DNA of 22,854 nucleotides from a virus. The position numbers and the translations under genes were made by a program. The DNA is taken from the IMG/VR virus record IMGVR_UViG_3300030099_000794, positions 1 to 22,854 of that record. The stretch is one strand, 5' to 3'. The notes beneath the pieces are model-generated. The model was not told where the DNA came from, made no database searches, and saw only the letters and a program-made list of their open reading frames with translations. This document shows positions 1-1,767 of this stretch, in pieces. The stretch's first letter is position 1; each line of letters opens with the position of its first letter.

Positions 1-408
1 AATATCCTTAAGTATTACAGGCTCACAAGAAAGTGGGCTTGTAAGACTTACGGATTAACAGATGCAGATTTAGAATTATTAATTTACTTAGATTGTAAAG
101 GAAGATTTACACGACAAGAGTTTATAGATGGTACTTATACCATGAGCTGGGATAAAAACCGGTGGGAAAAACTAAGAAGAGAAGGTTGGATAGAAACTTG
201 GAGACACAGAAACAGAACTACAATAAAGTACTCAGTGTTTAAAACCTCGTTCAAATGTTCTCAATTAATAAGTAGAATATACAGAATACTACTTGGCGAA
301 GAAGATTTACCTACTTCAGAGAGAAGTAAGTTTTATAATAACAAATCATATACAGATAAAGTTTATAATAAAGCTATAGATGATATGATAAAAGATAAAG
401 AAAGATAA
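1..408 (+). CDS. Winged helix-turn-helix (MarR-like) DNA-binding protein, 5' end outside the window
   Basis: The reading frame is open from base 1 to the TAA at 406-408, giving 135 residues; the first in-frame ATG (142) falls in the middle of the domain, so the true start lies left of the window. Numbering from base 1, a helix TDADLELLIYL (20-30) leads into FTRQEF (36-41), a basic, Trp-rich probable recognition helix WDKNRWEKLRREGWI (50-64), and a basic beta-wing rich in Arg/Lys (66-81). This order fits MarR-type winged helices. The tail (about 100-135) is charged and probably helical. It lies directly before the virion genes, one base from the next start, so it may regulate late transcription or bind DNA in another role. 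The fold is inferred from the pattern; the function is not known. Confidence 0.75.
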   Translation, partial: NILKYYRLTRKWACKTYGLTDADLELLIYLDCKGRFTRQEFIDGTYTMSWDKNRWEKLRREGWIETWRHRNRTTIKYSVFKTSFKCSQLISRIYRILLGEEDLPTSERSKFYNNKSYTDKVYNKAIDDMIKDKER

Positions 409-409
409 T

Positions 410-886
410 ATGGCATTTAAAATGAAAGGCTTTCCAACGCATAGCGTGTCTGCGTTAAAAAAGAAAAACACAATAAAAGAAAATAAATTTGATGTAGACA
501 AGTTAGCTGACGCAGACGATCAAAGATTTTTAGATAGACAAAGAGAAGAAAGAGTTAAATACTCTGAACTAGACGCTAAAGGTAAAGCTATTTACAATAA
601 AAATAGACAAAAATCAGGTTTAGCTCCATTAAAAAGAGATAGAACACCAGGGTCACAAAATCCTAATTTTCCAGACGTAGTGTATACTATAGATGGTAAA
701 GCAGTTAAAAGTATTAATATCGATGAAGAAGGGTTAGATTTAAGACCTAGTATAGGACCAAAAGGCAAGTTTGTTAATTATACTGAAAACGGTAAAAAAA
801 TAAAGTACTATTATAAAAATCCTAAAAAATCACCAGATCAAGCTAAGTTTAGTGATTTAGAAAAGTTTGATGAAGACAAAGGTTAA
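410..886 (+). CDS. Small basic protein with M(A/G)FKMKG N-terminal motif, function unknown
   Basis: 158 residues, strongly charged and Lys-rich, with no membrane segment or signal peptide. It begins MAFKMKGF, nearly the same start as the next gene (MGFKMKGP), and both then run into a Lys-rich stretch (KKKNT here, KKKKV there). Residues 35-70 are highly charged and probably helical; residues 85-140 look beta-rich (VVYTIDGKAVKSINI; KFVNYTENGKKIKYYYK). The start ATG follows an A/T leader, one base after the preceding stop. I do not recognise a family. Its place among holin, lectin and peptidase genes and the shared N-terminal tag suggest a late protein, perhaps virion-associated; this is inference. 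Confidence 0.7.
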   Translation: MAFKMKGFPTHSVSALKKKNTIKENKFDVDKLADADDQRFLDRQREERVKYSELDAKGKAIYNKNRQKSGLAPLKRDRTPGSQNPNFPDVVYTIDGKAVKSINIDEEGLDLRPSIGPKGKFVNYTENGKKIKYYYKNPKKSPDQAKFSDLEKFDEDKG

Positions 887-889
887 GAT

Positions 890-1378
890 ATGGGATTTAA
901 AATGAAAGGGCCTAGCCTATACAGAAATAAATCAGCGTTTACAGCTAAAAAGAAAAAAGTTAGTCCAAACTTTGATAAAAATTTTACTTCATTGTCTGAA
1001 TCAAAAAGTCCTGTTTTTAGAAAGAGTTTAGACGAAGGAGTTTTAGGTGAAGCAAATAATGATGGTACTATATTTGTAGATAAAAGCGTACCAAAAAATA
1101 GCCCACTAGAAGCAGAAGTTGTAGCGCACGAGCAAAAACATATCGATGATATGAAAGCTAAAATTAAAGTACCTGGTAAAAAGAACAAAGTTAAAAAACT
1201 AGATTATGGAGATAACTTTGTAATTTATAGAGGTAAAAAATTAAAAAGAAAAGATGGTATGATAGAACATCCAAAAACTGGAGAAATGAAACCAGAAGGA
1301 GATACTAGCTTTCCATGGGAACAAGCTGCTTATAGAGCAGGTAATAAAGCAAGAAAAGAAGCAGAAAAAAAGATATGA
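890..1378 (+). CDS. Putative zinc metallopeptidase (HEQKH motif) with FKMKG N-terminal tag
   Basis: 162 residues. An HExxH zinc-binding signature is present as H80-E81-Q82-K83-H84, preceded by the hydrophobic-acidic run EAEVVA and followed by IDDM. E144 in PWEQAAYRAG lies 60 residues downstream within a predicted helix and could be the third zinc ligand, as in gluzincin-type peptidases where a Glu follows HExxH. Before the motif is a short beta segment (GTIFVDKSV), also usual for such domains. There is no signal peptide. The N-terminus MGFKMKG repeats that of the gene before. Its TGA stop overlaps the holin ATG in ATGA, so the two are probably translated together; a role in lysis or in virion peptidoglycan cleavage is possible. 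The motif is seen; activity and substrate are inferred. It could be a structural relative without activity. Confidence 0.65.
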   Translation: MGFKMKGPSLYRNKSAFTAKKKKVSPNFDKNFTSLSESKSPVFRKSLDEGVLGEANNDGTIFVDKSVPKNSPLEAEVVAHEQKHIDDMKAKIKVPGKKNKVKKLDYGDNFVIYRGKKLKRKDGMIEHPKTGEMKPEGDTSFPWEQAAYRAGNKARKEAEKKI

Positions 1379-1767
1379 GTATATTAGGTAAAATATTTTC
1401 AAGTGGAGCTAATGAATTAGTAAAAGGTGTAGGTGGTGTAATAGACGAACTACACACTTCAAAAGAAGAGAAGCTTGAAGCAGAAAGAAAAATAAAAGAT
1501 ATGATAATGGGTTACGAAGCTAATATGCAACAGCAAGTAACTAAAAGATGGAAGGTTGATATGGCCTCTGATTCTTGGTTATCAAAAAACATAAGACCTT
1601 TAGTTCTTATATTTCTAGTAGTATCAACAGTGTTAATGATATTTATCGATGCTGGTGTTATTGCTTTTGAAGTAAAAGACACTTGGGTAGACTTATTACA
1701 ATTAGTATTAATAACAGTGATCGGTGCTTATTTTGGCGGTAGATCACTAGAAAAAGTAAAAAAATAA
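1375..1767 (+). CDS. Holin-like membrane protein (3TM / gene-transfer-agent holin type)
   Basis: 130 residues. The N-terminal 70 residues are amphipathic and charged: a Gly-rich start (FSSGANELVKGVGGVIDEL), then a Lys/Glu helix. Two strong membrane segments follow, at about 75-100 (PLVLIFLVVSTVLMIFIDAG) and 105-122 (VDLLQLVLITVIGAYFGG), with a short basic C-terminal tail (RSLEKVKK). The sequence SWLSKNIRPLVL before the first segment and the layout match the 'holin of 3TMs, for gene-transfer release' family that I know from marine phages and gene transfer agents. Holins of this kind form holes in the inner membrane and time lysis. The start overlaps the stop of the metallopeptidase gene by four bases (ATGA), implying translational coupling. 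Confidence 0.8.
   Translation: MSILGKIFSSGANELVKGVGGVIDELHTSKEEKLEAERKIKDMIMGYEANMQQQVTKRWKVDMASDSWLSKNIRPLVLIFLVVSTVLMIFIDAGVIAFEVKDTWVDLLQLVLITVIGAYFGGRSLEKVKK

Follow-up and report, generated by a model that had tools for sequence, protein, structure and literature searches.

A strictly conserved late-operon zincin of marine crass-related phages as a candidate virion-associated peptidase with a separate endolysin slot

A small, tag-bearing zincin with an invariant HExxH motif occupies a fixed slot in the late operon of marine phages related to the crass-type group, and the endolysin slot of the same genomes lies elsewhere. The gene was found in a complete linear IMG/VR virus fragment of 22,854 nt, hereafter the window, and had been described in an earlier note as one half of a possible holin and zinc endolysin pair. 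The reading preferred here, tentatively and at somewhat less than even confidence, is that of an active zinc peptidase belonging to a new family, compact and minigluzincin-like. It would be made late and would act on proteins of the phage while virions are assembled, or be carried in the virion, and it would not be an endolysin. This removes the unorthodox zinc endolysin as a false lead and brings to light a family of proteases that is near-core and strictly conserved in abundant marine phages known only as uncultured viruses. It also links that family with a common N-terminal tag, which may serve as an address for proteins.

Conservation and late-operon context of the zincin gene

The zincin gene (890..1378, plus strand) starts with ATG and encodes 162 amino acids. 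Three features reported in the earlier note are all confirmed in the window sequence: the zinc-binding and catalytic motif HEQKH at residues 80-84 (1127..1141); E144 of W-E (1319..1321), the presumed third zinc ligand; and the ATGA at 1375-1378, in which the zincin stop overlaps the start of a holin-family ORF. Upstream of the active-site helix lies a further, near-invariant motif, EANNDG (residues 54-59; 1049..1066). Relatives were collected in two IMG/VR scans that yielded 129 and 218 related stretches, and 92 distinct zincin ORFs, taken from the best 80 of the 129 and the best 80 of the 218, were compared. The pattern used for the second scan was [GA]EANNDG alone, and HExxH was thus not preselected. 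The motif is kept in 90/90 relatives with a complete motif region (the other two of the 92 are cut there) and in 63/63 relatives of the first set, so that no loss of H80, E81 or H84 was encountered, and a Glu equivalent to E144 is kept in 92/92. Invariant residues include L47, E54, A55, N56, D58, G59, H80, E81, H84, Y106, R120, E136, G137, W143, and E144. Divergent members lacking EANNDG, found via the DNA pattern of the N-terminal tag, retain HExxH as well. Because both motif and Glu persist throughout the relatives, those of the second scan having been collected without preselection for HExxH, and because dN/dS between close relatives is 0.01-0.18, the HExxH of ORF 890-1378 is, as judged by this alignment, more than a chance occurrence. 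The description of the protein as an HExxH+E metallopeptidase without an assigned family is supported by the motif invariance and by the Pfam search, in which no family was reached.

The family was absent from 50,697 phage records searched with three family members as queries, the sole hits being three Caulobacter phage matches at chance level (E about 8), and from 84,980 GTDB species genomes scanned with the EANNDG pattern. No close Pfam family exists for it; two PHROG families, both without function, are matched by 30 of 36 members (phrog_16532, best E 1.4e-6) and by 23 of 36 (phrog_10499). The literature contained nothing relevant on a zincin of crass-like phages. The zincin is best placed as a new family within a known kind of zinc peptidase.

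The window also encodes the crass-type muzzle domain PF25729, its TerL and its portal protein fall into the families phrog_6681 and phrog_6547, and the source phage is podovirus-like. Its TerL is 64% identical to that of Caudoviricetes MW202828 and 46% identical to that of the Flavobacterium elemo phages. On account of the muzzle, the TerL and portal families, and these TerL relatives, the host is probably a member of the Bacteroidota. When loci were picked by TerL alone, 25 of the 26 that span the region contained the zincin. The gene order is GroEL, GroES, a conserved protein of 136-146 aa, zincin, holin, TerL, portal, and capsid, with tagged ORFs optionally on either side of the zincin; the names GroEL and GroES follow the annotations of MW202828 and elemo and sequence resemblance. 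Such phage GroEL-like and GroES-like genes were seen just upstream of the conserved gene and the zincin in G001 (C1:3115-4924, L087), L014, G021, G022, and G034. Both the zincin and the strict tag are missing from MW202828 and elemo. The 3′ part of the conserved 136-146-aa gene forms the beginning of the window (1..408, plus strand). In most relatives this gene precedes the zincin, often 0-2 nt apart, and the zincin starts 0-2 nt after it in 36 of 69. DUF6321, a domain of unknown function, occurs in two late proteins (L102:14073-14405 and L089:3347-3733), one of them tagged.

Predicted fold and N-terminal tag

An AlphaFold2 model of the window zincin, built with 36 relatives, has a mean pLDDT of 76.9, rising to about 90 for residues 80-150, and a disordered N-terminus. 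In this model HExxH lies on helix 72-89, E144 stands at the start of helix 142-161, and strands at 51-55 and 61-64 accompany EANNDG. The model of a compact member (118 aa), computed with 49 relatives, shows the identical order of structural elements. In Foldseek its top PDB matches are abylysin (4jiu) and selecase (4qhi) at E about 0.1 (0.087 at best) and probability 0.95-0.99, matches that are partial, covering about 50 residues, and none of them individually significant; PprI/IrrE comes next as a weak match, and the 162-aa window model gave no convincing PDB match. A sequence profile search, independent of the fold search, ranked selecase MJ1213 first at E 0.08. Since both searches place minigluzincins first, we read the protein as a compact zincin closest to the minigluzincins, a likeness of type that falls short of established family membership. 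There is also a weak structural resemblance to phage SprT-like and IrrE-like proteins. Assignment to M90, M91, eCIS_core, DUF6782 or SprT was rejected, as the matches were weak and no family was reached.

The zincin begins with MGFKMKG (890..910), and the neighbouring ORF (410..886, plus strand; 158 aa), a protein with neither HExxH nor a family match, begins with MAFKMKGFP. Exact matches to this tag, M(A/G)FKMKG, number two in the window (410-430 and 890-910) and none in 100 shuffles. Across 14 genomes, a looser form of the tag heads 73 of 553 plus-strand (late) ORFs and 1 of 189 minus-strand ORFs, with 0.8% in shuffles. A DNA scan for the tag found at least 98 tagged ORFs (L280-L359); among those listed, 76 come from contigs that carry markers of the group, a good share are zincins, and basic or low-complexity proteins are frequent. 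The synonymous codons of the tag vary roughly as those of the gene bodies do, with the exception of Ala, which is mostly GCA, and constraint on the tag therefore acts mainly on the protein.

Several further arrangements were observed among the tagged proteins. Beyond the window, for instance at L087 986-2776, the tag marks small basic late proteins of many unrelated kinds, and it is largely restricted to the late strand. The zincins of L009, L010, and L037 have in common with other tagged or basic late proteins a module at the N-terminus, and that of L014 (2224-3768) is fused with a low-complexity tail of about 390 aa. A roughly 60-residue module, GYxVxIxKGKVVS...PHxxF...HExYH...KPFTDAEGxP, which contains an HExYH of its own, is present in some zincins and also in proteins, tagged or basic, that are encoded close to the M15 gene (L132:670, L133:5824, L037:1299, L089:4487, L095:1925, and L121:17287). 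Tagged HExxH proteins in two loci that lack the clade's markers, L292 and L359 (MAFKMKGINQVLSLHETSNH... and MAFKMKGVNELLSLHETSNH...), possibly represent a second tagged zincin family.

The endolysin slot and the function of the zincin

The ORF that overlaps the zincin stop (1375..1767, plus strand; 130 aa) matches PHROG holin family 3427 (E=2e-32) and scores 22.1 bits against Pfam GTA_holin_3TM, slightly under the cut-off of 24.8. Among 79 family members for which a holin was found, the zincin lies upstream of the holin in the same operon; the two genes overlap in about 6 of the 79 and are within 15 nt of each other in 13, and the remaining distances are 0.24-3.6 kb with other genes in between. 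Conserved translational coupling of zincin and holin was rejected on these counts. As the earlier note stated, no endolysin is visible in the 22,854-nt window, and Pfam and PHROG add none, an absence that says little because the window is a fragment only. The rest of the genome, in which the note proposed to look for a standard endolysin, is represented by contig G001 (47,894 nt) of the same phage, whose zincin, holin, TerL, and MCP are 100% identical to those of the window; identity is 100% for genes across the shared part, with one ORF at 99.7%. At 45,665-46,126, as the final gene of the late-strand operon, G001 carries an intact M15_3 peptidase with SQHMKGQAID ... WLHISW (SxHxxGxAxD and a C-terminal His), which is matched at E 2.5e-13 in Pfam and at 7e-27 by the endolysin family 894 of PHROG. 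Hydrophobic proteins of 51-53 aa are encoded directly before the M15 gene in G040 and G043, and a similar small one lies one gene further upstream in G035. Among the 24 records that bear the zincin and measure at least 44 kb, 15 carry M15_3, two Amidase_2 (G030 and G034, in the latter at the late-operon end), one a phrog_3000/33083 endolysin-type protein (G022), and one a DUF5675 protein (G056), both also at that slot; the other five stop short of it, so that it is filled in 19/19 records covering it. As a putative wall hydrolase, the DUF5675 protein is a suggestive case only. M15_4 was absent from the zincin genomes and present in the elemo control only, and Phage_lysozyme was absent from 18 records. 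As the late-operon end is occupied in all 19 of these records by one of the four types, the wall-hydrolase slot is, by gene content, located elsewhere than the zincin, its enzyme being exchanged between genomes while the zincin is retained.

These observations bear directly on the explanations that compete with the preferred one. That the zincin is a small zinc endolysin forming the phage's sole lysis pair with the holin was suggested by the gene overlap in the window phage and the lack of an endolysin within 22.9 kb, but the overlap is not conserved and an ordinary endolysin gene accompanies an identical zincin in G001, with M15_3, Amidase_2, PHROG endolysin-type or DUF5675 genes in the remaining genomes of at least 44 kb that reach the operon end; the zincin as sole endolysin, paired with the holin, is accordingly abandoned as extremely improbable. 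A milder version, in which the zincin enters the periplasm once the holin has opened the membrane and there assists the main endolysin by cleaving envelope proteins or the peptides of peptidoglycan, retains the shared operon and the overlap in its favour, and has a precedent in Mtz/Tim of Listeria, an HExxH protease of phage origin by which cells become sensitive to lysins (PMC8235301). It is nevertheless unlikely, given that the holin usually lies 0.2-3.6 kb away beyond other genes and that a recognised endolysin is encoded elsewhere in the genome. Moreover, the zincin has no cell-wall-binding domain, no lysis family was matched by the window protein in Pfam or PHROG or is included in the family matches listed for 36 relatives, and the zincin, in contrast to the endolysin slot, was never seen exchanged for a wall hydrolase.

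Two further explanations place the protein outside lysis. As a protease aimed at the host, either injected along with the DNA or produced inside the cell, it could inactivate a defence or regulatory protein of the host in the manner of ImmA/IrrE-type zincins; its weak resemblance in structure to PprI/IrrE and to SprT-like and IrrE-like proteins of phages agrees with this, as does the presence of ejected cargo proteins in crass-type virions (PMC10172136), whereas its fixed late slot in 25 of 26 loci is unlike that of a variable counter-defence gene and no defence-type neighbour was found, which leaves this option, too, with a low probability. A catalytically inactive structural protein retaining the zincin fold would account for a small, basic product with a disordered N-terminus and for modules held in common with non-enzymatic-looking late proteins, but the catalytic E81 is as invariant as the ligands, and this explanation is hardly probable.

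For an active peptidase of the virion-building stage, we infer catalysis, substrate, and the use of the tag as an address along the following lines. Zinc would be held by the two His of HExxH with E144 as the third ligand, and E81 would serve as general base. Produced late, while virions are being built, the enzyme would cut phage-encoded protein substrates during assembly or travel in the virion, to which the M(A/G)FK(M/L) tag common to many small basic late proteins may direct it. The earlier note had named processing of virion proteins as its alternative, and this suggestion fits better than lysis, on evidence that is indirect. Three zincin-bearing genomes (G035, G037, and G043) encode no strict M.FKMKG proteins, a point against the assembly-protease reading: the enzyme does not simply process this tag, and the idea that it acts on the strict form exclusively is weakened. 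The tag could have an alternative role. Also counting against an assembly protease, the description of the phi-crAss001 virion, from a distant relative, makes no mention of protein cleavage (PMC10172136). More specifically, and rather doubtfully, marine crass-related phages might gather small basic late proteins and the zincin into the forming virion by means of M(A/G)FKMKG, and the zincin might mature or release them there.

Comparison with known zincins and with phage T4

The phage zincin resembles the minigluzincins (abylysin, jannalysin, and selecase MJ1213) in being a single-domain zincin of about 100 residues with a strand before the HExxH helix and a distant third Glu on a C-terminal helix. 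It differs from them in a strand region inserted between the two helices that bear HExxH and the Glu, in its N-terminal tag, and in its occurrence in phages only, and the likeness amounts to a non-significant sequence match (E 0.08) and a partial fold match. With the IrrE/ImmA, SprT-like, M90, M91, and eCIS_core zincins it shares weak matches around HExxH, whereas the EANNDG and EG..WE signatures are specific to the phage family. The Peptidase_M15_3 endolysins (PHROG 894) are likewise zinc peptidases of the same genomes, but their fold, their motif (SxHxxGxAxD...H), and their gene slot are different. In bacteriophage T4, the capsid targeting sequence is an N-terminal tag on several internal proteins, and the prohead protease gp21 is a serine protease. 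An analogous layout in the marine phages would consist of an N-terminal tag on internal proteins and a protease in the assembly module, although gp21 has no homology to the zincin and both targeting and cleavage are here a proposal. If true, the proposal would amount to targeting and cleavage in the manner of T4, but with a protease of unrelated origin.
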